A stretch of DNA of 64,000 bases from Halococcus sediminicola. Lineage in GTDB: Archaea > Halobacteriota > Halobacteria > Halobacteriales > Halococcaceae. Made by a program: the position numbers and the translations under genes. This document shows positions 6,429 through 64,000 of this stretch, piece after piece. The stretch lies in assembly GCF_000755245.1 (NCBI RefSeq), contig NZ_BBMP01000024.1, forward strand, positions 1 through 64,000, read 5' to 3'. Below the pieces are notes generated by a model. That model saw nothing but the letters and a program-made list of their open reading frames with translations. It ran no database searches and was not told the origin of the DNA. Each line of letters begins with the position of its first letter. Position 1 is the stretch's first letter.

Positions 6429-7667
6429 CTAGTTCTCTTCAAGCGGTACTGGGTAGAGCTGGCGTAGCTTGATTCGGGCGTCGTCAGTGGTGAACTGCCA
6501 GTCAATCAGACCATCAGCAACGTTACGACGATCCTGCCACGCAGCGACCTCCGACCGGAGAGTCGCTGCGTGATAGATTCGCCGATCAAGACACTGGCGT
6601 TTGAGTGTACCAATCTCGATTTCGGCCATATTCAGCCAACTGCCATGCTTTGGCGTGTAGTGAAACTCAAAGCGGTCGAGATACGCCTGTGCTTCATCCG
6701 GCGGGAAGAACCGATAGAAGCCGGCGGGATTGTGCGTATTCAGATTGTCGAGCACCACCCGGATGCAGTCCGCATCCGGGTAGTGCTCATCAGCGAGTTC
6801 GACCATCCGGTCGATCCACTCGCACGTTCGTCGTTTCTCGGTGATCTCGACGTTCACCCAGCCGGTCAACGGTTCGGTGGCGAGATGGAGCTTTTTCTTG
6901 CCGTTCCGCTTGTAGTGCGTATCGACACGTGCGACCGCTCCCGGTTCCGCCGGGAGCGGGTCGCGTTTGTGGCCGCGAAGTGCCTTGCTGGTTTCGTCGA
7001 AGCAGATGACGGGACGATTCTCGTCGTATGGTTCGTGGTAGAGGTCGAGGACATCCTCCATGTAGTAGACAAACTGGCCATCATCTTCAGCGGGAATCGC
7101 CCAGTAATCGTAGAGATGCGGTTTGAGGATGTTTTTTTAGCCGCCGTCTCACGGTTTCGTGAGAGATCGACTCTAGTCAACGAGGAAAGTTCTGGGTATA
7201 GAGGAAAGAGGATCTCACGCTTCTACATCCACAGACGGCAGATCGCCATTAGCCGATATGCAAAACTTCTCTTGGTCACTAAAGTCGATCTCGTCGAGGG
7301 TCACGAGTTCGTCGGCGAGGAGATGCAGCGTCCAGCGAGCGTGCCCCTCGGGTGGGTCGGAACAGGCGAGTTTGATGAGACGTGCTTCAGCGTCTCCGTC
7401 GAGCTTGCGCTTGTATTCGCGGTCGGGCTTGCGGCGATGAATCGCCGCGAGCCCTCGCTGACAGTAGTTTTTGCGTGCCTTGTACGGAGTCGCGATACTG
7501 CAGCCGACGTGCTCACAGATCTCTGCATCTGTGAGCCCGTCGTCAGCCTTCAGGAGAATCCGTGCCCGCATGTTGTCCTCAGCCTTGCGTTCACCGGTCG
7601 AGATGAACCACTCAAGCGTTCTGCGTTCTTCCTCAGAGAGATCGACAACGTGCTTCTTCCGGCCCAT
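6429..7667 (-). pseudogene. IS630 transposase interrupted by a nested insertion
   Basis: The N-terminal frame starts at ATG 7667 and is normal up to L-D-E-I-D-F. It is then replaced by unrelated codons ending in TGA at 7215. The original reading resumes past the insert as E-S-I-S-H-E-T-V-R-R-R-L-K-K before the usual A-run, and the catalytic half (6429-7061) is intact with V-I-C-F-D-E-T and V-V-L-D-N-L-N-T-H-N. The gene is therefore inactivated by the ~108-bp insertion. Confidence 0.8.
7174..7281. mobile_element. Miniature inverted-repeat element nested in IS630 copy 2
   Basis: About 108 bp with no coding capacity. Its ends are inverted repeats: TAGTCAACGAGGAAAGTTCT on the left and, complemented, TAGTGACCAAGAGAAGTTTT on the right (about 18 of the first 26 positions match). 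Removing it restores the transposase frame. The flanking TA dinucleotides are consistent with a TA target. Confidence 0.6.
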
Positions 7668-40737: not shown

Positions 40738-41370
40738 TTATTCGTCCGGGTAGGCGATGCGTCCGGCCCACTGCTGTTGGTTTGCTTCGCTCTCGCCGTC
40801 AAAGCGGAGCGAACCCGTCGCGCCACAGTTCTGGCACTCGTAGAATTCCTCCCAGTTGGGGCTGTTCTCAGCGGTCGCGGCGACCATCGCTATCTCGAAG
40901 CGCACACCACACGACTGGCACTCGGATTTCTCGCCTGCACCCACGGATTTGTCGCCGAAGTGTTCGACCGCCTGATCCCAGTGGTCAGTCTGTGGTTGGG
41001 TGCCGTCAGCATCAGTTGCGTCGGTGGGGACGGCCCGCTGGGTTCCGCCATCGGTCGCAACCTGCTGACCAGTTGTCGTGCTTGCGGCGCGGGTGACGGC
41101 AGGCTGATTTTCGACGGCCTGCATGTGCTTACAGCCGTCCTCGGGGTTATGGTACTCCCATGCCGGGCACGTGCAATCGAACGGAATGCCGGCCTCGACA
41201 CTCACGACATAGACGTGTTCGTCCGAATCAGCGCCGTAACTGACGTTTTCGACGCGAACTCGTCCCTCGGCAGGAACTCGAAACTCGAAGCCTTCCCAGT
41301 TGGCGCGTAGTTCGGCTTTGGTTGGTTCGCTGTCGGTACGTTCTTGACCGTTGAATTCGTTCGTACTCAT
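40738..41370 (-). CDS. SWIM-type zinc-finger protein behind leader B
   Basis: 210 residues from ATG 41370. SWIM motif C-T-C-P-A-W-E-Y…C-K-H-M at about 56-71, and a second zinc site C-Q-S-C…C-Q-N-C in the C-terminal third. SWIM domains bind DNA or proteins. The N-terminus M-S-T-N-E-F-N-G-Q-E is shared with the proteins at 38195 and 43114. Confidence 0.82.
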   Translation of the reverse strand: MSTNEFNGQERTDSEPTKAELRANWEGFEFRVPAEGRVRVENVSYGADSDEHVYVVSVEAGIPFDCTCPAWEYHNPEDGCKHMQAVENQPAVTRAASTTTGQQVATDGGTQRAVPTDATDADGTQPQTDHWDQAVEHFGDKSVGAGEKSECQSCGVRFEIAMVAATAENSPNWEEFYECQNCGATGSLRFDGESEANQQQWAGRIAYPDE

Positions 41371-41463
41371 GGTTTGTCGGGGAAAGACAAACCGGCCCGC
41401 GCGCTCCAACGCGCGGGCACTTCCTTTCGCTCGAAAGTGCCCCGGGGGACCGGTCCGTCTCTA
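41371..41463 (-). promoter_or_regulatory. Structured RNA leader, copy B
   Basis: RNA order: S1 GACGGACCGGTCCCC; hairpin GGGCACTT…AAGTGCCC; hairpin CCCGCGCG-TTGGAG-CGCGCGGG; S2 GGGCCGGTTTGTC; S3 GACAAACC touching the AUG. S2 and S3 form a perfect 8-bp helix. A GTTTAAGG box about 30-40 nt upstream of S1 supports transcription from just before it. Confidence 0.75.
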
Positions 41464-41711
41464 TTCCATAGTAACGGCCTTAGGACCTTAAACCCTTTCC
41501 TTTATCCTATCGATAGCTTACCGTTGTCTTGCGATTTCGGTGCTCGCGGTTGGTCTGTTGCGTTGGTTGCGGCGCTGTGTGGCGGAGGAAAGATGGGCTT
41601 GTCATAATGGCGTATGTGCGGCACCACTGAGATGGCAAACTGGCCCGCTTCTCGTCGTTCACATGCTCGGAAAATACGGCCGCCTGGCGGGCTGGTTCGG
41701 CGGTTGGCGAG

Positions 41712-42626
41712 TTAGTGGCCGTGGTTGGTGGCTGTTTGGCGTATCGAGTTGTCGGGGTCGTTGCTCCACGGGTAGAACGACCCTCGCCGCGTGGGGCCGT
41801 TCATGTCGCCGTCGTTGCCGAGCGGATAACTCCCGCGAAAGCGTGGGTCGCCGTCGATGCCGTCCCGAACGTGTAGGCGAAATTCGTCGCCGTATTGTTC
41901 GGCGGTCGGCCGTAGCTGCTCGCTCGTGCGTCCGTGGCCGACGCGCTCGGCGGCGACGAACCGGGCGAGAACGGTCTTCCCGCTATCGCTGACTGCGACG
42001 ATTTGGGCGAGTTCGACGTTGGTCTGGTTGTAGCCCCAACTCGCGGAGATATACGCGCCTTCCCATGCCTCAGTGACGGTTTCGGCGTCGGGATCGAACG
42101 TGGGGTCCGTCTCGTCGCTCCCGGTCCCTTCGTCGCTCTCGTAACTGTCGTCCGACTCATCCGGGCCATTGCCTGCGTCGCTGCTTTCGTCGCTCTGTGA
42201 CTGACTCTCGTCGTCCTCGGCGTAGCCGCCATCGGCGACCGCTCGCGGGCTGGGTTCATCGCCCTCGGTCGCGGTGGGTTCATCGCTGCCTTCCTCGCCG
42301 CTGTCGCGTTCGGTGTCGTCGCTCTCGAAAAGGCATTGACTGGCGGCGCGTTCGCCGGTTAGCGTCTGCTGGTCGTCGTCGGTATCTGCGAACAGCGCGC
42401 GCTGCTCGCCGCCGTCGGTGCGCGTGACCGTCTTGCGGTCGTCCACGCCGAAGTTCGTCGCCTCGGGCTGGTCGATACGGGTATCGCGCTCGCGGTGGTC
42501 TACCGACGCTCCGAACGCTTCTAGTGAGGTCTCGACGCTTTCGTCGGTGGGTTCGATGCCGTCGGTGTCGCCGCCCTCGTCGACGGTAAACGAATACTGC
42601 TGGGTGACGGTCGGGGTGTCGGACAT
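41712..42626 (-). CDS. Large acidic protein, second cistron of leader-C operon
   Basis: 304 residues from ATG 42626, overlapping the upstream stop (TAATG). Residues ~80-185 are Asp/Glu/Ser-rich and disordered. The C-terminal ~115 residues form a compact domain (W-E-G-A-Y-I-S-A-S-W-G-Y-N-Q-T-N-V). Not recognised; probably an element-specific protein. Confidence 0.65.
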   Translation of the reverse strand: MSDTPTVTQQYSFTVDEGGDTDGIEPTDESVETSLEAFGASVDHRERDTRIDQPEATNFGVDDRKTVTRTDGGEQRALFADTDDDQQTLTGERAASQCLFESDDTERDSGEEGSDEPTATEGDEPSPRAVADGGYAEDDESQSQSDESSDAGNGPDESDDSYESDEGTGSDETDPTFDPDAETVTEAWEGAYISASWGYNQTNVELAQIVAVSDSGKTVLARFVAAERVGHGRTSEQLRPTAEQYGDEFRLHVRDGIDGDPRFRGSYPLGNDGDMNGPTRRGSFYPWSNDPDNSIRQTATNHGH

Positions 42627-43114
42627 TAGGCCAGCACCTCCTCGACGCGCTCTTTCTGGCTGGGATCGATGCCGAGCTGGCTGATGACTTCAATAGCCGA
42701 CGCGCCGGGATTGTTCGTCTCGAAGCGTTCGACGCGCTCAGCCAGCGTTTTGCTGTCGGCGTCGGATTCATCGTCGGTGTCCCCGCCGTCGGCTTCGATG
42801 TCGGGGTCGTTGTCGGCTGCGACGTGAACGCCGACGATGGCGGGGATTTCACCGGTCACGAACGCGGCACGGTGGGCGTGCTTGCACCACGACCCACGCT
42901 GACCGTCCGGGCACGTACACGTCCCTTCGGGGAGGTTGACCGTGTAGGTGCTGCCCGATCCGCTGAAAACCGTATACTCGCCGCCGTCGCCGGCTGATTC
43001 GACATGGTAGAAGCTATCGAGTGCTCGGTGAACACGCTTGGCTACCGCTTCGCTGCCGCGTCGTTCATCGGCCGATTCGCTGGATTCTTGACCGCTGGGT
43101 TCGTTCGTGCTCAT
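42626..43114 (-). CDS. SWIM-type zinc-finger protein behind leader C
   Basis: 162 residues from ATG 43114. SWIM motif C-T-C-P-D-G-Q-R-G-S-W-C-K-H-A-H-R at about 67-83. The last ~45 residues form a helical domain (L-A-E-R-V-E-R-F-E-T-N-N-P-G-A-S-A-I). The N-terminal block M-S-T-N-E-P-S-G-Q-E is shared with the other leader-controlled proteins. Confidence 0.82.
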   Translation of the reverse strand: MSTNEPSGQESSESADERRGSEAVAKRVHRALDSFYHVESAGDGGEYTVFSGSGSTYTVNLPEGTCTCPDGQRGSWCKHAHRAAFVTGEIPAIVGVHVAADNDPDIEADGGDTDDESDADSKTLAERVERFETNNPGASAIEVISQLGIDPSQKERVEEVLA

Positions 43115-49013: not shown

Positions 49014-50062
49014 CGCTCTTGTGTAGATTAGCGGAACCGAGTCACGGAGATTACGGCATCCCGCCGACAGCAGTCGTACATGACCAATGAACGCGCTGCT
49101 TTCGGCGGAATGCTTGAGCAACTCGTTGACCTCGGAGCAATAGAGTTTCGGCCGGAGCCGCTCGACGCCATCGTCGAGCGGCGACTCAAAGCCATCTGGA
49201 CCACCCGTACCTGCCCGAGCTGTGACGCCGACGCCCTCCACGCCCTCGATGGCTCGGCCCGTATCTGGTGTGGCCGCTGTGACTGGAAAACCACCTACAC
49301 CCGTGGCACACCCTTCTATGACTCGGAACTCGCCCCCGGCGAGTTCCTCGTCGCCTTCGTCCTGTACGCTGATTCCCTCCTCAGCATCAACCAAATCGCA
49401 CCGCTGCTTGACCGCGCCTACAAAACCGTCTTCGAGGCAATTAGCGACGTGGAAACCGCGTTCGCTCGCGGTTTCCCGACTGTTTGGGAACGCATCGAGC
49501 ACACGATTGCTGGGCCGACACAGGTGGACGAAACGCAGCGGGTGTGCTCGGGGTTCAAAGGCCAGAACCCACCGCGGGACGGACTGTCCCGCGGCGGGTC
49601 CCCCGGACCCGGACGGGCGCGATGGACAGGAGAGCAGGGCGATGAGATGACGCTCGTCGCGGCCTGCCGCGACGTGCTCCAGGTGATCTCAGCCGAAGAG
49701 GGGTCGAAATACGACGAGAACCTCGGGCCAGTGATTAAGGAAGCAGGCGATCTCTCCCAGCCGCTGGGAGAGATCTGGACCGACGAGCTTCCCGCGTATC
49801 AGCAAATGGAACACGAGCATCGAACCGTTGTCCATGATGATGAGTACGTCTCAGAGGAAGGTATCCACACGAATCAGGTCGAATGCCTCTGGTCGTTAGT
49901 GCAACCGTGGCTGGCGAAATTCCGCGGCCTGTCCAAGCAGGGCTTGGAGCAGGCCGCTCGCACCTTCGGGCTTCTTCGCTCCCTGAATCTTGTTCAAGCA
50001 CCCATCCACAGCCTTGTCGATTGCGTCGCTGTCAACGTATTCCGCTAATCTACACAAGAGCG
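49014..50062 (+). mobile_element. Complete IS1595-family element with 8-bp target duplication
   Basis: Perfect 23-bp terminal inverted repeats at 49014-49036 and 50040-50062 (core CTCTTGTGTAGATTAGCGG). The direct repeat ATTCGATC flanks it at 49006-49013 and 50063-50070. 1049 bp, one transposase gene. Intact ends indicate a recent insertion between the toxin-like gene and the MFS gene. Confidence 0.93.
49080..50048 (+). CDS. IS1595-family transposase
   Basis: 322 residues. The N-terminal zinc ribbon C-P-S-C…C-G-R-C at about 42-63 is typical of IS1595. The DDE core has T-Q-V-D-E-T near 156 and W-T-D-E-L-P-A-Y near 230, with H-T-N-Q-V-E-C-L-W late. Full length within intact ends. Confidence 0.92.
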   Translation: MTNERAAFGGMLEQLVDLGAIEFRPEPLDAIVERRLKAIWTTRTCPSCDADALHALDGSARIWCGRCDWKTTYTRGTPFYDSELAPGEFLVAFVLYADSLLSINQIAPLLDRAYKTVFEAISDVETAFARGFPTVWERIEHTIAGPTQVDETQRVCSGFKGQNPPRDGLSRGGSPGPGRARWTGEQGDEMTLVAACRDVLQVISAEEGSKYDENLGPVIKEAGDLSQPLGEIWTDELPAYQQMEHEHRTVVHDDEYVSEEGIHTNQVECLWSLVQPWLAKFRGLSKQGLEQAARTFGLLRSLNLVQAPIHSLVDCVAVNVFR

Positions 50063-51475: not shown

Positions 51476-52360
51476 TTAGAGGGGAGAAATGGAGAGATCC
51501 TCATCGACCACTATTTCGAGGGAGTCCCCATTGAGTTCGAGAGTCGTCTCGATGCGCCACGGGTCCTGTGAGAGTACTGTTAAATTCTCCTCACGCAGCC
51601 ACGGAAGCTCCCAGAGTGGCGTTTCGCCGAGGTCGATACCGTGGTTGTGGTGGAAGGCGTAGACGGCCGGGTGTGAGAGGAGGTAAATGCCGATTGAAGA
51701 TACGGAACTCTCGTTACACCGCTCACAACGATATTCGATGCCAACCTCCTGTCCCTCGTAGAAATACTCGGAATCGTCGATTATCGAGCCACACATACGG
51801 CCAGCACAGTTGGGACAGAGTCCTCCAAACACCGATACGATATATGACCGAATCCAACTGTGGAATGCGCGGGCGAGTTCATCACGGGAACGATTTGCGA
51901 ACGCACCCGGTGGGAAGCCGAACGTCGAAATCACTTCGTCGCAGGTGGGGCAGCTGATAGTAACACGCTCGTGCTTATATTCTGCTAACAGTGCGGACTC
52001 GCAGACGGAGCAAATAGAGCTGAGTTCGAATGATAGCGATGCCCCGCGTTGATTGAACGTTCCCGAACAGATGGCCCCGATGACTCGCTGACCGGCGTAG
52101 GTCAGTTCGTATTCGCCGTCTTCAGTACGACGAACGAAGCTCCCGACGAGTTGGTTGAGGTGATAGTTGAACTGGCCGCTATCATCCACGTTGGCGTAGC
52201 TCCGTAGTGTCGAAAAGGAAAGTGATTCCTCACTGGCCTCGTCAAACGCTTGAATAATCCTAACGCGGTTTTCGTTTCCGAGCAGCGCGAAGGCGTTCTC
52301 GGGTGAACTCTTCTCTGAATCGGTCTGCTTGGTTGAATCGGTCATGCGGTGAAGTTTCAT
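51476..52360 (-). CDS. DUF7351-like regulator with ArsR-type winged helix and Cys-rich domain
   Basis: 294 residues from ATG 52360. This start is supported by conservation of M/V-K-x-H-x-M in the vestigial copy at 23391. Winged helix at ~25-90 (F-A-L-L-G-N-E-N-R-V-R-I-I-Q-A-F and Q-F-N-Y-H-L-N-Q-L-V-G). The middle and C-terminal region has several CxxC pairs (C-S-V-C, C-P-T-C, C-P-N-C, C-E-R-C) for zinc. This architecture is typical of the haloarchaeal winged helix/DUF7351 family; the signal sensed is not known. Confidence 0.82.
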   Translation of the reverse strand: MKLHRMTDSTKQTDSEKSSPENAFALLGNENRVRIIQAFDEASEESLSFSTLRSYANVDDSGQFNYHLNQLVGSFVRRTEDGEYELTYAGQRVIGAICSGTFNQRGASLSFELSSICSVCESALLAEYKHERVTISCPTCDEVISTFGFPPGAFANRSRDELARAFHSWIRSYIVSVFGGLCPNCAGRMCGSIIDDSEYFYEGQEVGIEYRCERCNESSVSSIGIYLLSHPAVYAFHHNHGIDLGETPLWELPWLREENLTVLSQDPWRIETTLELNGDSLEIVVDEDLSISPL

Positions 52361-52450
52361 CGGAGAAGGATAGCTCTACCCACTATCTCATAAGGATCGA
52401 TTTGAACATAACCATGTTCCACTCATCGTCTCGGCTTAAGTTAGAACATC
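52361..52450 (-). promoter_or_regulatory. Promoter of the DUF7351-like gene with a dyad
   Basis: A CTTATGAG box lies about 33 nt before ATG 52360. Between box and start, GATAG…CTATC forms a dyad that in the vestigial copy at 23391-23540 is the perfect 7-bp GATAGCG…CGCTATC. Autoregulation is plausible. Confidence 0.55.
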
Positions 52451-54060
52451 TGCATCATGCGGTTACTGGGCCGACAGTACACCGTCCTCGACGCTCGAAT
52501 GTCTGGTCGGTCCCCGGTGCCGTTCGGGACCGCGAGTGTTGTTGCGGACCGTCCCGCACCGCTAACGCGGTGCTCCGCTGCCCCTGTCCCCTGCGCGTAG
52601 CTTGGCCGAGGTCAGATGAAGCGATGCACAGCTATCACCACTGCTGGTACACACTTGGGGTCGGGCTTGCAGTCACCCGCTCTGGCCACTTGCCCGCTAC
52701 TCGCTTGCTCGGGATTCAGATGGTCGTCGAAGACTCGGGATTCAGGCCCGCCGTCGCTCTCGCGGTATCTCTTGCTGTTGCAGGACGACGCTGCTGGCTC
52801 ATCGCTGGTATCGGCCTGCTGGGGATTCAGGGTTGTTGCCACCGCTTTCCTGCTGTCTCGCTCTCGCGCTCGCTCGGGATTCGGGCTTGCTCTCACTCAC
52901 ACTCCTGGAAGTGCCCTGCACCACGCTGGTGAATCCTCACAGCTGTTGCTGAGTTGGTAGTGAAGCGGTGCTGTAACTGGTAGTGAGGGCTGTGTTGAAA
53001 GCTGGTAGAGAGTGCTGTGCTGAGAGTAGGTAGTGAACGCTGTTGCTGAGTGCTGGTAGTGAGTAGAAGCTGAAACACACGCTGGGATTCAGCCTTGCTG
53101 TAGCTGTCGCTGTGCCGCCGCTGTTGCGGTGCTGTCGCTGTCGCGGTCTTGCTGGACTCGCGGTGCTGTTTTCGCTGTTGCAGCCCCCGCTGCTGCGGGC
53201 TGTGCTGTCGCTATTGCCGACGCAATGTTGGTACGGTGCTACTGCTGGCCTGACCCCCGGACTGTCGCTGAGAACTAACTGACTCCGGCTTGCTGACGCT
53301 GTTGGGTTGACCCCAGTGATACGCTGCTATCACTGCTGGACCCCCGGTCTATCACCTAGCGGTTTTCCAGTGCTGGCCGCTGGTAGTCGGCCTGACCCCC
53401 AGCTTGCTGTCGCTGGCGCTGTACTGCTCGCTGCTGCGCTGCTATCGCTGTCGCGGTGAAGGGGGACCTCCTGTTGCTTGCTGTCTCTCAGCAGTGATCT
53501 GTAGGCTCTCAGGGCTAGCCTGAATCCTCGGCAGTGTTCTATGGTGAATCCTGAATCTTCGCTGTTGCTCTGATTGACTGGCTAACTCTCACTGGTTGCT
53601 TCGCTGGCCCGAAATCCAGGACTTTGTTGGTGCGAACTAGACCTCGCGATGTGTTGTCGCTGGCTTGAATCTCGGTGATGCTCCTCACCGGAGATTGAAT
53701 CCTCGACGATGCTGCTATTCTGAATCCTGCTGATGCTAGTCGCAGACCTGAATCCCGGTGGTGTGTCTCGCCGGGGTTGTATCCTCGATGATGGTACGCT
53801 CCCCTGAATCACGATGGGTCTCTAACTGACTGACTGAATCCCAGTGTTGCTTTGCTGGTCTGAATCCCTGTGGTAGTAAACGCGGCTTGACTCTCGGCCT
53901 GCTCTGGAGTGGCCTGAATCCCGGCAGTGCTATGCCTCGCTGAATCCCCGGCGCTGTTATCGGCGATTGCGGCCTTTTTCTCTGATCGCTGATATGCTCT
54001 GCTCGGGGGTCGATCTGTCTACGCTCCCGGCTATCGCCAATGTCTATTCTCACCCCAGCA
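52440..54060. repeat. 1.6-kb gene-free region packed with short repeats
   Basis: No real frame in any register. GGGATTCAG-like words (GGGATTCAG or GGGATTCGG) occur about five times between 52705 and 53095. Their complement CTGAATCC(C) occurs about ten times between 53515 and 53965, with diverged forms (TTGAATC) among them, so the array changes orientation around 53.1-53.5 kb. In the middle are at least five CTGGTAGTGA-like words about 25-35 bp apart (52945-53075) and several TGACCCC words. GCTGTCGC/GCTGTTGC words are abundant on the plus strand. It resembles an iteron-type control region. Confidence 0.6.
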
Positions 54061-54209
54061 TCGGGGGTTTTGTGGACGGCGCGCTGAGATAAACTCTAAT
54101 TGACTCTGAATAGGAGTCCTGATTCTGAAACCGTATAGGGTGACTACGATGGCTCTGAGTCTGTATTTTGAATCGTGAGTTTAATATATACTGGTGCTTG
54201 ATATGTTCT

Positions 54210-54868: not shown

Positions 54869-56044
54869 TTATCTACTGACGAAGTTTGGTTCCGCCTCGA
54901 TCCATAGCGAGTCAAGCGCATGATTCCCCCCAAGGGGAAGCTTCGCAAATTCGACGCTACTGATGCTATACCCATTGAGCGTATCGCTTTGCTCGATGAA
55001 CGGTCCCTGCAGGTTTACGTACACGTGCTCAAGTGAGAGGAGGTGATTCAGCTGCTCTGACAGCGTTTTGTCGCTATCAGTTGAGTGCTCTGGCTGGAGA
55101 TCTCTAATATACCTCTCATGAGCCCGTCCCATGTCCTCATCCTGGCTCTCGTTGAATAGCTTTCGGAAGGGGTTCTCGACAATGAGGGCTTTCGGATATG
55201 GCGGCTGCGTTCGTTCCTCTTCCATAATAGTCTCAACGACATCCTCGTTCGAGATTTGCGGGAGGGTCGGGTTGACTCGCGTCTTGACACGAAGGAAATC
55301 GCTGGGCTTCTGGGCGTTTTTAAGTTGGTAGCCGAACGCCCCCACTGCTCGCCGGATAGGCGTATCGTTGACTGGAATACCGTCCGTGACGACATCAATA
55401 TGCAGGTAGCGTGTTCGATCACCACCCATTGTTCCTTCTTCTCCCCGCGAGGGTTGACTGTCGACGATAAGGTACGCGGTCCCAGGTGACTTGATCGGCG
55501 TGACATACGTTGCGGACTCCGAGTGGTGCGTCCGCTCTGGGTTGTCGCGCTCATATCGATCATTCATTCTATTGAGAGCTGCGTAGTAGTCGGCGATCCC
55601 CTGCCCGCTCCAGTGTCCGCCCTCTTGACCGATGCTCCAGACCCCCTGACCGACGTACGGACTTGCACGAGCAAACCCAGCGAAGAGTTCCTCCTGCCCC
55701 CGGACACCGTTGTTCCGATGTTCTTTTGTGTTTATGACGTACATCGCATCAGTTGAGTATGGGAGAAACGACGAGTACACGATAGTCGGCAGCCCCCCAC
55801 CGAGGTTCTTTTTGCTCGTGTACCGGACATTCTCTAGAGATCCGCCTCTCAGCAGTTCATCTCGATCTGGTACCTCGACTACTTTCAGTTCTTCGAGCCC
55901 TGCTTCTACTATGTCTGCGTATGACTGGTCGAGGTCGTTGTTCGTTATCTCATCGTACGACTTGACTCGCCCGTGCAGTGCCCAGTCGATCTCGATATTC
56001 GGTCTCACTGTACTTGGACAGATTGGCTCCATGACTATAAACAT
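54869..56044 (-). CDS. Uncharacterised 391-residue protein
   Basis: Start ATG 56044 (M-F-I-V-M-E-P). A TTTATTTGG box 29 nt upstream supports a leaderless start. The protein is globular with a strand-helix pattern (L-K-V-V-E-V-P-D-R-D-E-L-L) and P-K-A-L-I-V-E-N-P-F-R-K-L-F. No ATPase, nuclease or transmembrane signature was recognised. More A/T-rich than neighbours. Confidence 0.7.
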   Translation of the reverse strand: MFIVMEPICPSTVRPNIEIDWALHGRVKSYDEITNNDLDQSYADIVEAGLEELKVVEVPDRDELLRGGSLENVRYTSKKNLGGGLPTIVYSSFLPYSTDAMYVINTKEHRNNGVRGQEELFAGFARASPYVGQGVWSIGQEGGHWSGQGIADYYAALNRMNDRYERDNPERTHHSESATYVTPIKSPGTAYLIVDSQPSRGEEGTMGGDRTRYLHIDVVTDGIPVNDTPIRRAVGAFGYQLKNAQKPSDFLRVKTRVNPTLPQISNEDVVETIMEEERTQPPYPKALIVENPFRKLFNESQDEDMGRAHERYIRDLQPEHSTDSDKTLSEQLNHLLSLEHVYVNLQGPFIEQSDTLNGYSISSVEFAKLPLGGNHALDSLWIEAEPNFVSR

Positions 56045-56239
56045 TGTCCAAAAGTATACCCAGTCCAAATAAAGTCAGAAATCACATAGTAAATAGGATT
56101 CGAGAGAATAAAGACCTCTAAGCCCACAAAACTCGACGTAAAGACGCGTAGACTATGGAAAATTTCGATCCTGAGGAGGAATTGATAATAGTTAGGTTGG
56201 TCTAGTTGTCTATTGGGACTCAGTAGAGTCCGATGGTGC

Positions 56240-56465: not shown

Positions 56466-59400
56466 TTACGGCGAGAGGCCCATGAATCCGTGATCGCTCT
56501 CATCTGCATCCTCGCTGCTTTCGCTTTGATTCGTGGTTTTCTGTGGCTGATCGTCATCGGATTTAGAGGAATCCTCGCTTTCAGTTTCGTCGTTGGCGTC
56601 GGGTGATCCCTTCGCCTCGGGTGGCACACGCGGAGCAGTGATCTCACCATCCTCACTAGTGCTCGATGGTTCTTCTCTCTTGGTCGGATTCGACAGAGTA
56701 GCATCGAACAGTGGTGCGACCATCGTGACTGCTCGCTCTTTGGTCAGCTGCGTTGGGTCGACTCCGGTGAGCACTTGACGGGTTCGCTCGGCCGCTCGTG
56801 CTTTCGGCACCCCTTTAGCTGCGATCTCGCTTGCGACTATCTCAATGAATTCGGTTTTCTCTGGCCGCCCATCCTCGACCTCACCATCGACGGCTTCGGG
56901 CTCGCCTTCGCTTTTGTCGCTCCTCTCGTCTTCATCGTCACCCTCTTCAGCTAATCCTTCTGGCGTCTCCGGCAGCGTGATCTCGTCGGGCAACAGCGGC
57001 TCGAACTCACCTTTCGCTGCAATCTGCGGCTCGTCATACTCGGGGTTGTCCACGTCGGGGAATACGACAAAGCAGAAATCGTCCGGCGTCGGGGTACGTC
57101 GGTACTCGTTTTCCGGGATAAACGGTGCGTAGATGCGCCGCCAGTTCTGCTTCATTGCCCCCTTCGTCTCGTACTCTTCACGGCCTCCATCCTTGGTGCG
57201 AACGACATAGACACCCTTGCTCTGGTCGTACTCGTAGTACGCTGCTGTATCTTCGCGCTCGACGTTTGCCACTGCCTCAGGACTGTCGAAGCGCATGTAC
57301 TCCTGTGGCGGCGCGATCTCTTCGCGGTCTTCCTTCACACCTGTATCCCGCAGGACGACCTCGCCGTACTCTTCTTCCCAGCGGATTTGCGTGCTGCCTT
57401 CCTCGCGGACGGTCCGAAGCGCGTACACGCCCTCTTCGATTTTCAGATGGTTCTTTTTCTCGTTGTAGAACCAGCGGTTGCCGTTCTCGTCGGTTTCGTT
57501 CGCAAACGTCAGCGTGTTGTAGTCGATTTTCACCTCGCCACCTTCGCGGTAGGTGTCGTAGATGATCTTCTCGCCGCGCTCGCGCCAATGGTCGAACTGC
57601 TCAGGATCGCCGAACATCTCGTCTTTCAGCGCGAACACGCAAAATCGCCCGGAGTTAATCGCTTTCCGCAGGTTGGTAAGCGTCTGTTCGGGGGCGTCCA
57701 TCGTACTCGTCTCGGCTTCAATCGAGACGTTGTATTCACCAGCGAACTCCCAAACATGGGGAAAGTCGTTTTTCAACCGCTGTTCGCGCTTGCGGCGCTC
57801 GGTCGGATCGTTCGTCGCCATTGGATCAACCGGGAGATCGGCCATCCCGTCAGCGGCTTCGTTGCTATCCTGCGTTGGAAGCCACGTCGCATAGCTGAGC
57901 TTGACGAACGCAGCTTTCGCTTTCGCAAGGACAAGCCGATGATCGAACCCCCCGCCGTTCTCGGCGGAGCCTGTATCCTGTGTGAGACCTGCGTTCCGCA
58001 ACCCTTCGGTAGTCAGCGTCAGGACGCGCTCGCCCTCTCGCTTGCCTTTTTCGAGTTCGGTATCCGGCGTCTCCTCGATTAGATTGGCGACTTTGTTGTC
58101 TGAGCCGAGATCACTGCTCGCTATCCGGCGAAGCTCCGCAACGACCTCTTCGTAAGGAACAGACTCACCGACTGCATCGCGGCGAATTTGCACTGTGTGA
58201 GCCGCTTCGTAGAGGCGCTGTGTTGATGTCTGTCCGGCCGCCGCCGGCTCTGGTTCCTCTCCATCCTCGAAAACTGGCTCACCGTCTTCCAAGTAGAATG
58301 CCGACGACTGTTGCTGTTCCTCTGCCGACTCGATGGGTTCGCCATAGCGCTTCATCGATTGGATTTTGAGCGCTTCGACCTCCTCGTCGCTCATGCCCGT
58401 CTCGCCGGTCGCGCTCTCTCGCACCTCTTGAATCGGCTCAAAAGCATTGACCAGATACGAGTGGGTGTTATCGTCGGTAGAGGTGTGGGTACGGAGGTAG
58501 CATTTGTATCGGGGCATCTCTCGAAGCGTCTCAGCATCGACCGAGTGGTGCTCGGCGACGTAATCAGCATTTTTCGTGCCGGGATTGAATGAGAGAAACG
58601 TATCACACTGATTGCCGACGGCATTTTTCAGCCGTTCGGGAAGTTGGTTGCCGGGAGCCTGACAGGCCATCACGCAGCGATAGTTGTGTCCACCCGCTTC
58701 CGAGAGAATCGTGTGGAGGTTGGATTCCTCAGTGGCTATCTTATCGAACTCGTCGCACACGAGGTAGAACGGTTCTTCGTTGTCACAGACACGCTTACTC
58801 GCGTACGTTCGTCGGATGAGTGCCGTGGTGAGCAGCCGGCGCTCGGTCTCACCTGCGCCTTTGGCGAAGCGGAGCACGATGACCTTTCCCTCCTCGACCG
58901 CTTCGTGAATCGAAAACGACGGGTCACGGGCGGAAATGAGATCGCGGATGGCGTCGTTGTGAATCCACTCGTCCATCCGGCCGGCGAGCGGTTCGAGGTC
59001 GGTGTCCTCTTTCTCCTCGAATCGCTTGGCAGTCTCTCGGATGAACGTAATGCGCTCGTCGTCCATCCAGCGCGAGAACTCCGAGAGACCAGTCTGCGAT
59101 GAACACGCGCAGGCCAGATCGAGCAGGCTCACCCCGCGTCCGGACCGCAGCAACCCTCTCGATACGGTCTTGGTTACGCGCTTCATCAGCGCACCGAGGT
59201 ACTTCTCTGAGCCACCGGACTGGGCGACCATCGCGGCGATATCGTCAGCGAGAGCTTCGATCATCGTCGCCGCGAACCGTGAGTCAGGGTCATACCCCGG
59301 TGGTATCTCCATGAAGTTGAACCGGGGAATGTTCTCGTAGGGTTCATCGTCAGGACCCAGCCCAAGGTCCATTACGATCAGGTCCTCTTCATCGCGGTGT

Positions 59401-61121: not shown

Positions 61122-61417
61122 TATTCGCCACCTTCCGTGGGAGAGTCGTCCTGAGTGGTCGAATGAGTCACCCCGCTTCGTGATTCTCCGAGAGTGATGT
61201 GTGGCGGGAGATCACGGTCGAACGGGTCGGTCGTACTGACCTGTTCGTCCTGCTCGTGGTGATTATCAGGGACACCTTTCGGATCGAAAAACGTGACTGT
61301 CGTTTCGTCGTTGTCGTACATCTCTTTGATGAACTCAGTAGCGTCGGAAACGGTGCTCTCGAATGTTTGTTCGTCCGATGCGTCGTCAGTCGTAGATCGT
61401 CGATTGTCCTCAGTCAT
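61121..61417 (-). CDS. Small acidic protein coupled to the VirB4-like gene
   Basis: 98 residues from ATG 61417, overlapping the upstream stop by 8 bases. Acidic and mostly disordered (T-T-D-D-A-S-D-E-Q-T-F-E), with a short F-I-K-E-M-Y-D-N-D-E-T-T-V-T-F-F segment. Function unknown; position suggests a secretion-complex accessory. Confidence 0.6.
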   Translation of the reverse strand: MTEDNRRSTTDDASDEQTFESTVSDATEFIKEMYDNDETTVTFFDPKGVPDNHHEQDEQVSTTDPFDRDLPPHITLGESRSGVTHSTTQDDSPTEGGE

Positions 61418-64000
61418 GATCGGCTGTTGCAGGTCCCTCGTCGGATTCCGCCGACTCGTCAAGAAGGCTGATCGCGCTCTCGGTGATCGTCTCGGCCCGC
61501 GCCTCGCCGATACCTTCGACATCGGTCAAGGCAGATTGACCGGCTGCGGCCACGTCTCTGATTGACCCATAGCCTGCTTCGCGGAGTATATTGGCTCGGT
61601 TGCCGCCGACCTGCTGGATGTCCGTGAGCACAGGTTGACCGTCGGTGCTCTCGGACGTTGGCTCGGTTGCATCGGCGCTCTCATCGCCGTCGGAAGCATC
61701 CGATGGCTGTGTTTCCTCGACTGACTGCTCACTGCTCTCGCCGGTTTCAGAACCGTGAGAGTCCTCCGTGTGGGCCTCACCAGCATCGGCAGTCTCATCT
61801 GCGGTCGTGGGCACAGACGCTTCCGAAGACTCCAGCGCTTGCTCGGCCACGTCCTGTATGTAGGCCGCATTCGTCTCATCAATACCCTCGACCGCTGCGA
61901 GCGTGGTCGGTTCGGCCGTATAGACCTCTGTAACCGTCTCGAAGCCGGCTTCACGCAACGCGGTGGCTTTCTCCGTATCCACGATACCGATGTCAGTAAG
62001 CTCTGGTTGGGCTTTCCCGGCGGCCGGATGATCGAAAGCAGAACTGATGCTGCCTCTGAACCGGCTCAGTAGCCCTCGCCGACTCACCTCACCTTCCCAG
62101 TCCGATTCGTCAACAGTCGCACCCTCTTCTTCACGGTGCCCACTTGGATCGCTGCCATTCTCAGATGCGCCCTCCGGTGAGAACTCAACCTCTACAGCCG
62201 GGTTCTCTTCCTCGGACTCATCCGGGTCTGGGTCCTGCTTGCTCTCCGTTTCTGTGGCTGGTTCCTCTCGTGTACCTGCGTCACTCGTCTCCGCTGTTTC
62301 GATAGCGCCGGGCGTCGGAGCGGGAGTTTCAGCCGCCGTGGCTCCCGTGGATGCCATGACGTCGTCCTCTGGCTCAGACTCAGCGTGTGCATCGTACAGA
62401 GCAGCATCATCCACCCAATCCGATCCTTCGTAGGTTTCGGAGAGAGTATCATTGCCGGCGTTGGCGGGCGCACTGTTGTCGTTTGCGTTGTCGTTGTCGT
62501 CATACGTTGGCGCTTCTATCCGCTCGACGCTCGTTCTACTGTGTCCGTTTGACCCAGAGCGCTCGCCGAGAGTGCTCGGGTCCACAGTGAGCAAATCATG
62601 GGCCGCGTCTGTATCGCTGGCTCGCCGGCCGTTGATACCGCTCTCGCTCGTACTGTTGCCGACTGGGCCAGTCAGCGTCCCACCGTCCGCGGTTGCCGTC
62701 TGAGCGGTTGTAGCCGCTGGTGATGACTCCTCATCAACCTCTGCTGGGCCGGGAACAACTGGAACAGCAGTTGCTGGCGGCGTATAGCCGCTCTCCTCCG
62801 GCGGCTCGATACCACATTGTGCCTCCATGTACGCCGCGAAGTCGCCGTCCTCGCGTGGCGTGTACGTACAGACAGCATCCTCGACCGGCGATGCTTCGAT
62901 ATGCAGTGGGAACCAGCTTTCAGGGCGGTCGTCAAACTGGATGAGTGATTGTGAGTAGTCGCCTTCCTTGCCGGGGTGCATCCCCTTCTTGACGTGGTTC
63001 ACCTGCTTCTCGTTCAAGCCGAACTTCGGCAGGATGTCGTCTGCCTCGTCGTCAGTATCGAGGCCTCGCGTGCGGAAGAACTGGACCGTCGAACACTGCT
63101 CATAGATCGTCCGGCGTTTGTTCTCGCCAGCACCGCCCGTCGTCTGTGCGATGAACTCGCGCGGCGATTGCGAGCAAAACCACAAGCAAGCATCGTAGCG
63201 TGCCCACTCACGGGCGGCTTTCTGCAACCAGTTCACCATCTCTTCGGAGTGGAGCAAGAAGTGCGCCTCGTCGATGAGGAAGATCGTCTCACCGGACGTG
63301 CGCTTGACCTTCTGGTTGACCTGATCCAGCATGAGCCGGAACATGGCCGACTTCTCTGCCGAACTCGAATCCCGGAATTGCCGAAGGTCGAGGTACGCCA
63401 TGTCCACGTCGTCATCCATGAGGCCGGTCGCGTCCTCATCGAGCAGATATTCGTATTTCTGACCCTCCATGAACCCGCCGAGCGCGTCACGTAATTCGGC
63501 GATCTTGTCGGCTTTCTTGCCGAGTTCTTTGTCGTGAGTGCCGAGTGTAAGCGAACTCGGCTCGTCCATCACTTTCTCGGACAGTTCGATGAAATCACGC
63601 ATGGTCGCGTCCGCTTCGGCAAGCGATGACGGGTCTCGCGGGTCGGCTCCCGCCTCGATCAACGTCCGACGCACGAGTTGTTCAATCGTGTTGTGGAAGA
63701 TCGACGGGTCGTACCCTTGTGTACGGACGAGTGCCTTGATGAACTGCACAATGCTGTCGGCCTTCATCGTAAACGGACTCATCTGCCCGCCCGAGTGGCT
63801 GGCGTGCTCCGGCGGCGCTTCCGTATAGAACGGGTTGACCGCATCCCGCCCACCGAGTACGATGTGCTTGCCATTCAACGCCTTCGTCAAGCCGTCGAAC
63901 TCGCCCTGCGTGTCGAGGACGATGAGCGTCCGGTCTTCGTCCTCGGAATACCAGCGCTGGCACGCTTTCTGTGCCGAGTAGGACTTCCCTGATCGAGAGG
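61410..64000 (-). CDS. VirB4-like ATPase with C-terminal helix-hairpin-helix repeats (N-terminus outside window)
   Basis: 863 codons are visible; the gene enters from the right edge. The P-loop R-S-G-K-S-Y lies at the very edge, followed by L-I-V-L-D-T-Q-G-E-F. Walker B is F-L-I-D-E-A-H-F-L-L, and W-F-C-S-Q-S-P follows, as in VirB4/TraC/HerA-like motors. After a ~250-residue disordered acidic linker with an Asp-Asn tract come two helix-hairpin-helix-like repeats near the end (L-T-D-I-G-I-V…V-E-G-I-D and L-T-D-I-Q-Q-V…V-E-G-I-G-E-A-R), an uncommon addition to this class. Confidence 0.85.
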   Translation of the reverse strand, partial: SRSGKSYSAQKACQRWYSEDEDRTLIVLDTQGEFDGLTKALNGKHIVLGGRDAVNPFYTEAPPEHASHSGGQMSPFTMKADSIVQFIKALVRTQGYDPSIFHNTIEQLVRRTLIEAGADPRDPSSLAEADATMRDFIELSEKVMDEPSSLTLGTHDKELGKKADKIAELRDALGGFMEGQKYEYLLDEDATGLMDDDVDMAYLDLRQFRDSSSAEKSAMFRLMLDQVNQKVKRTSGETIFLIDEAHFLLHSEEMVNWLQKAAREWARYDACLWFCSQSPREFIAQTTGGAGENKRRTIYEQCSTVQFFRTRGLDTDDEADDILPKFGLNEKQVNHVKKGMHPGKEGDYSQSLIQFDDRPESWFPLHIEASPVEDAVCTYTPREDGDFAAYMEAQCGIEPPEESGYTPPATAVPVVPGPAEVDEESSPAATTAQTATADGGTLTGPVGNSTSESGINGRRASDTDAAHDLLTVDPSTLGERSGSNGHSRTSVERIEAPTYDDNDNANDNSAPANAGNDTLSETYEGSDWVDDAALYDAHAESEPEDDVMASTGATAAETPAPTPGAIETAETSDAGTREEPATETESKQDPDPDESEEENPAVEVEFSPEGASENGSDPSGHREEEGATVDESDWEGEVSRRGLLSRFRGSISSAFDHPAAGKAQPELTDIGIVDTEKATALREAGFETVTEVYTAEPTTLAAVEGIDETNAAYIQDVAEQALESSEASVPTTADETADAGEAHTEDSHGSETGESSEQSVEETQPSDASDGDESADATEPTSESTDGQPVLTDIQQVGGNRANILREAGYGSIRDVAAAGQSALTDVEGIGEARAETITESAISLLDESAESDEGPATADHD

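Follow-up and report, generated by a model that had tools for sequence, protein, structure and literature searches.

A gene-free region of approximately 1.4 kb in Halococcus sediminicola is built of short G-rich words that recur every 26 bp and face one way in its left part and the other way in its right part. An array of this design recurs beside the gene of a coupling ATPase (T4CP) in several haloarchaeal genera. We tentatively favour, as the most likely of the explanations weighed below, that the region acts in cis as a DNA site of a plasmid conjugation module, similar to an origin of transfer (oriT) or to the clt locus. This reading leads because of the adjacency of the T4CP gene, the uniqueness of the array, the polarity of the repeats and the fact that no relaxase has been identified on the archaeal plasmids reviewed so far. 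The array was found in a 64-kb stretch of DNA, called the window below, which belongs to a contig of 149.6 kb in a draft genome of 3.76 Mb. Coordinates are collected in Table 1.

Table 1. Features of the array and of the neighbouring conjugation module, in window coordinates.
Feature	Position	Strand	Remarks
Polar G-rich word array, 26-bp pitch	52657..54010	+	A-poor/T-rich on + strand
Left-arm words GGGATTC(AG)	52711..53092	+	at 52711, 52737, 52822, 52876, 53084
GGTAGTGA words, n=4	52956..53062	+	at 52956, 52979, 53029, 53055; nowhere else in window
Central block, inverted second word TGACCCC/GGACCCC	53252..53399	-	at 53252, 53309, 53339, 53394
Right-arm inverted words GAATCC(C), nine copies	53521..53948	-	copies from 53521 to 53941; spacing often 24-28 bp
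Promoter-proximal operator-like segment	54095..54190	+	TCTGAAT-type words; TATA-like TTTAATATATA at 54180; putative operator role
Winged-helix protein, 170 aa	54210..54722	+	MarR/Sso10a-like fold with C-terminal helices (predicted structure)
TrwB/TraD-type coupling ATPase (T4CP), 1496 aa	56466..60956	-	convergent with winged-helix gene
Winged-helix domain in T4CP C-terminus	57978..58238	-	aa ~907-993; predicted structure
Candidate PD-(D/E)XK-like domain of T4CP	57624..57971	-	aa ~996-1111; PDG...IEAETST...NLRKA...CVF; motif and predicted topology only
Protein with VirB4-like part (aa 1-304) and helix-hairpin-helix motifs	61410..63890	-	next module gene

The gene-free region lies between a DUF7347/DUF7351 gene (51476-52360, - strand) and the winged-helix gene. 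Its words are 7 bp long and G-rich, with GGGATTC on the left, the reverse complement GAATCCC on the right and GACCCC in the middle. All nine exact copies of GGGATTCAG/CTGAATCCC in the window fall inside the region, four of them in + orientation on the left (52711, 52737, 52822, 53084) and five inverted on the right (53748, 53834, 53860, 53914, 53940). The original prediction, which described words running one way on the left and inverted on the right with TGACCCC words in the centre, was therefore correct in these points. GGATTC is present in 5 + copies on the left and in 10 inverted copies, one of which (52930) is out of order, and 49 of 50 pairs are ordered. The second word is also found in + orientation, as GGGGTC, at both ends of the array (52657 and 54006). 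The complete form CTGGTAGTGA has merely 2 copies.

The two strands of the region differ strongly in composition. There were 14% of A and 27% of T on the + strand, at a G+C content of about 0.57-0.58, and GCTG was counted 56 times compared with 7 times for CAGC. Together, GCTGTCGC and GCTGTTGC occur 12 times on the + strand and 0 times on the - strand, in agreement with the strand bias noted earlier. The view that all six frames are closed holds approximately: an ORF of 209 aa (52303-52932) overlaps the left edge and the longest internal stop-free run has 163 codons, and neither is gene-like. Strong T skew is also seen in a second stretch of the window (40951-43000, AT skew about -0.33), which overlaps minus-strand ORFs. 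Near the left side of the region there is also an ORF with an ISXO2/IS1595-type transposase domain (49080-50048).

We quantitated the pitch by counting identical 6-mer pairs and comparing the counts with dinucleotide-preserving shuffles. At a distance of exactly 26 bp the region contains 20 such pairs, while 0.8 are expected (z = 14.9). When 15 homologous regions were pooled, there were 133 pairs compared with 9.3 expected (z = 32.7), and harmonics appeared at 52 and 78 bp. No peak at 26 bp was observed in the control, for which the neighbouring T4CP gene supplied coding DNA. On the whole contig no other stretch is as strongly periodic at 26 bp, and no word pairs at the array spacing were found elsewhere in the genome, which makes the array the only one of its kind found there. 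For pairs 24-28 bp apart, z reached at least 6 in 21 of 34 homologous loci and at least 4 in 25 of them; among 125 control segments z exceeded 6 in 2 and 4 in 7. The remaining nine loci (L039, L042, L053, L056, L059, L061, L068, L076 and L077) gave z under 4, therefore the array design is not universal even within this clade. Four loci (L041, L043, L066 and L069) owe their high scores to other words.

Relatives of the winged-helix protein were identified, by a search with this protein, in 35 of 392 Halobacteriales genomes; none was encoded on viral contigs. In most of the 34 homologous loci a T-skewed, gene-poor gap of 1.2-2 kb lies upstream of the winged-helix gene, and in several plasmid records the gap without listed genes measures about 1.5-2.5 kb. 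Gene order is the same in nearly all loci: the array is followed by the winged-helix gene, which is convergent with the T4CP gene, and the VirB4-like gene is usually next. The array adjoins T4CP genes of plasmids in Halalkalicoccus jeotgali, Haloferax gibbonsii (pHGLR3), Halobacterium hubeiense (pSTJ001), Halococcus dombrowskii and others, and no gene is listed in the gap there. Neither the pitch nor the convergent arrangement had been part of the original prediction. Since the array recurs beside the T4CP gene in several genera, it offers a candidate for testing: the fragment of 1.4 kb could be deleted or placed elsewhere.

The layout is constant, while the sequences of the words differ between lineages. 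In the window and in H. thailandensis the words are GGGATTC and GGGGTCA, in Halalkalicoccus GGGAGTC and GGGGTCC, in Haladaptatus GGGATTC and GGGGTTC, in Halobacteriales archaeon YIM A00010 GGGAGTC and GGGGCCA, and in Halonotius GGGTGTC. We observed the inverted layout of G-words in 17 of 34 loci. In 15 of these 17 all + copies of the main word lie to the left of all inverted copies; the two exceptions are the window, with its single misplaced copy, and L036 (16 of 20 pairs, four out of order). The Halalkalicoccus arrays contain three word sets, arranged as 1, 2, 3, 1', 2', 3' and usually with two or three copies each, and about 1.2 kb is conserved at roughly 70-80% per column. The array of L036 is of the Halalkalicoccus type. 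Direct DNA similarity gave a single match of 95 bp (74%) among relatives, to H. thailandensis of the same GTDB genus, and short matches in bacterial records only among plasmids.

These comparisons bear on two explanations which do not involve a DNA site. Decayed coding or low-complexity sequence without function would account for the simple vocabulary of words and for the missing protein family. We consider it most improbable, as the design recurs in several genera with different words, the Halalkalicoccus copies are conserved over about 1.2 kb and the 26-bp pitch is far beyond chance. Almost as improbable, in our opinion, is transcription of the region into a large structured non-coding RNA. 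The conserved 1.2 kb, the strand asymmetry and the complementary words of the two arms would suit such an RNA, but Rfam gave no match and folding of the alignment was weak. Among eight Halalkalicoccus copies (mostly 64-82% identical), antiparallel helix runs numbered 793, compared with 845 in the parallel null, and those with two or more compensatory pairs 37 compared with 35. Folding energy in eight loci resembled that of shuffles on both strands (mean z = -0.18 and -0.03). Furthermore, the order 1-2-3-1'-2'-3' of Halalkalicoccus cannot nest. Because of these negative results the region is best read as double-stranded DNA that probably carries protein sites.

The original prediction had proposed a locus of replication or segregation. 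A repetitive non-coding locus, probably protein-binding, with a conserved design beside a winged-helix gene, was what we found, and partition remains a serious alternative to transfer. The replication half of the proposal found no support. In an origin with iterons, direct repeats of fixed pitch in a unique non-coding region would be expected, and they are present. However, haloarchaeal origins have an adjacent Orc1/Cdc6 gene and a turning point of the skew, and the array has neither: Cdc6_C matches lie on other contigs only, and cumulative GC skew of the array contig shows no single turning point. A ParA-like match was also absent from the contig. We noticed no AT-rich stretch suitable for unwinding, in line with the G+C content given above, and the array travels with transfer genes. 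The absence of Cdc6_C and ParA matches on the contig, together with the absence of a skew turning point, makes an origin quite unlikely.

The winged-helix gene is located immediately 3' of the array in every locus. The model of its product (pLDDT 78) is structurally similar to MarR-type regulators and Sso10a-2. No Pfam family matched the protein, and PHROGs and NCBIfam returned weak regulator matches only. The stretch directly before the gene (54080-54200) resembles a promoter/operator segment and is distinct from the array core. The words of its proximal 100 bp or so (TCTGAAT at 54105, TTCTGAA at 54123) differ from those of the array. We compared these proximal words between loci. L036 and the window, with winged-helix domains 56% identical, have TCTGAAT-type proximal words in common and different array words. 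L036 and Halalkalicoccus L047 have T4CPs that are 91% identical and winged-helix proteins that are only 35% identical, and here the array words are the same and the proximal segment differs. In H. thailandensis (L035) and Halalkalicoccus L047-L050 (domains about 53% identical) the common proximal words are of the CCGAGAAA type. Thus, the class of the winged-helix protein tracks approximately 100 bp at the start of its own gene and not the distal words. From the comparison of L036, L047 and the window it follows that the winged-helix gene and the proximal segment were exchanged together, independently of the array and of the T4CP. Such a joint exchange points to the proximal segment as the operator of the winged-helix protein, which would probably bind there as an autoregulator or accessory factor. 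We also considered the distal words as sites of the same protein; since their identity is independent of its class, this candidate is weakened, although it keeps some probability.

Three further observations concern DNA upstream of winged-helix genes. The array of H. thailandensis (L035) has, towards its right end, an additional tandem whose 23-bp unit is CTCGGTATTCGGTGTCTCGCTCC; it lies some 250-320 bp ahead of the winged-helix ORF. Locus L041 (G005) has a different array at the same position, with 12 GATAGGTG words in one orientation, partly as a 9-bp tandem. On the chromosome of G086 (L040, about 6700-7260) GGGAACC words in one orientation lie upstream of the winged-helix gene; the examined 17 kb contain no T4CP gene, and the next gene leftwards starts like a ribbon-helix-helix protein.

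The constant neighbourhood of the winged-helix gene is also the main argument for a partition centromere similar to parS, tubC or stbDR. The winged-helix/coiled-coil protein would bind both the array and its own promoter, and would tether or pair plasmid copies. The repeats of every locus do adjoin the gene of a DNA-binding protein, even if a T4CP gene is missing from the vicinity. Its fold, a winged helix with C-terminal helices, is that of archaeal DNA-binding proteins such as Sso10a-2, and the homologue on pHGLR3 carries the annotation 'chromosome segregation protein'. The exchange of the gene with its proximal segment as a cassette is as expected of an incompatibility determinant. In plasmid R388, the stability site formed by StbA and the stbDRs lies next to oriT (PMC3098194). 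Because of this precedent, and because the winged-helix gene is a constant neighbour of the array, the centromere follows closely after the transfer site in our ranking, and we regard it as possible, if somewhat unlikely. Against it stands the independence of the distal words from the class of the winged-helix protein described above. Moreover, we did not find a motor or ParA partner: a search with AAA_31 detected no ParA-like gene on the contig, which may be incomplete. The array, at 1.4 kb and with its two inverted word types, is also large for a plasmid centromere. Should the region be a centromere after all, archaea would possess a new segregation site whose two-arm geometry is unusual.

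The transfer site, which we favour, agrees with the position of the array beside transfer genes, the T4CP gene being convergent in nearly all loci. The exceptions are L040, L044 and L049, which have the array and the winged-helix gene without a T4CP gene in the examined stretch, the T4CP being encoded elsewhere in the genome; these loci count against a role in transfer. So do other haloarchaeal T4CP clades, in which the same C-terminal domain is present and no such array was found within about 9-12 kb. The T4CP was tried as the reader of the words and rejected in this simple form, as word identity does not follow it cleanly: the T4CPs of L035 and L045 are 72% identical and the words differ. 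This too speaks against the transfer site, as does the fact that neither a nic site nor a relaxase was identified at the locus. Between the winged-helix and T4CP genes of the window there is an ORF of 399 aa (54869-56068) with no family match, and it was unmatched in the other loci compared.

As a transfer site, the array would act as an origin of transfer or loading zone recognised as double-stranded DNA. A reader protein would bind the words at every 26 bp, that is 2.5 helical turns. As each of the two word types is one-way on the left and inverted further right, the protein-DNA complex would extend in two arms that face opposite ways. Processing may be the task of the T4CP, which itself contains a winged helix and possibly a domain resembling a nuclease. 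Its C-terminus matched no Pfam family, and we modelled aa 860-1330 (pLDDT 81.5). The winged helix gave its best Z, 9.7, to entries containing MukE, and ORC/Cdc6 and TubR were also matched. Behind it comes an alpha/beta unit, in which the motif PDG...IEAETST...NL..A contains invariant residues. The order of helices and strands and the motif suggest a PD-(D/E)XK-like fold in this model. On the opposite side, this part had no match to profiles in Pfam or to structures in Foldseek/VIA-align searches with the T4CP C-terminus, where the winged helix dominated the list. We found the C-terminal domain in 88 plasmid records, haloarchaeal as far as listed, and T4CP clades without the array are among them.

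Archaeal VirB4 and T4CP are described without known relaxases (PMC3158045), and no relaxase was identified on the archaeal plasmids reviewed in PMC12857230. Replic_Relax (PF13814), taken as a candidate relaxase, had no match in the genome of the window and none above the cut-off in 117 genomes. A bolder version of the transfer reading, which we put forward as speculative and on the whole unlikely, is that the array is the long-missing cis site of haloarchaeal conjugation and is recognised by a T4CP that has absorbed the relaxase function through its fused winged helix and PD-(D/E)XK-like domain. If so, this would explain why no separate archaeal relaxase has been found.

Repeat arrays as plasmid sites are already a known kind, and the array can be compared with several of them. 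It resembles clt of Streptomyces in that short words are repeated in a non-coding plasmid locus adjacent to a DNA-translocating ATPase system. However, clt consists of 8-bp repeats (TRS) recognised by the FtsK-like TraB (PMC4170104), whereas here there are two 7-bp word types, inverted arms, a 26-bp pitch, a VirD4-type T4CP with a VirB4-like gene and a putative reader. At the oriT of the MOBC type (pAD1), the PD-(D/E)XK relaxase TraX binds a set of five direct repeats distant from nic (PMC12857230). Close to the array, too, a candidate PD-(D/E)XK-like domain is encoded, but it is fused to the T4CP and is not a separate relaxase. With R388 stbA the array has in common a DNA-binding protein and repeats around its promoter beside a transfer region. 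In the stbDRs, however, 9-bp repeats are arranged in two sets of five, with 2 bp between repeats (PMC3098194), while the present 7-bp words, one every 26 bp, extend through 1.4 kb and lie apart from the promoter-proximal segment. The winged-helix centromere binders AspA and TubR are likewise encoded beside repeats, but here no partner ATPase was found on the contig and the words do not track the protein. The openly licensed full texts that we searched contained no description of a two-word, inverted form with a 26-bp pitch at an archaeal conjugation module.
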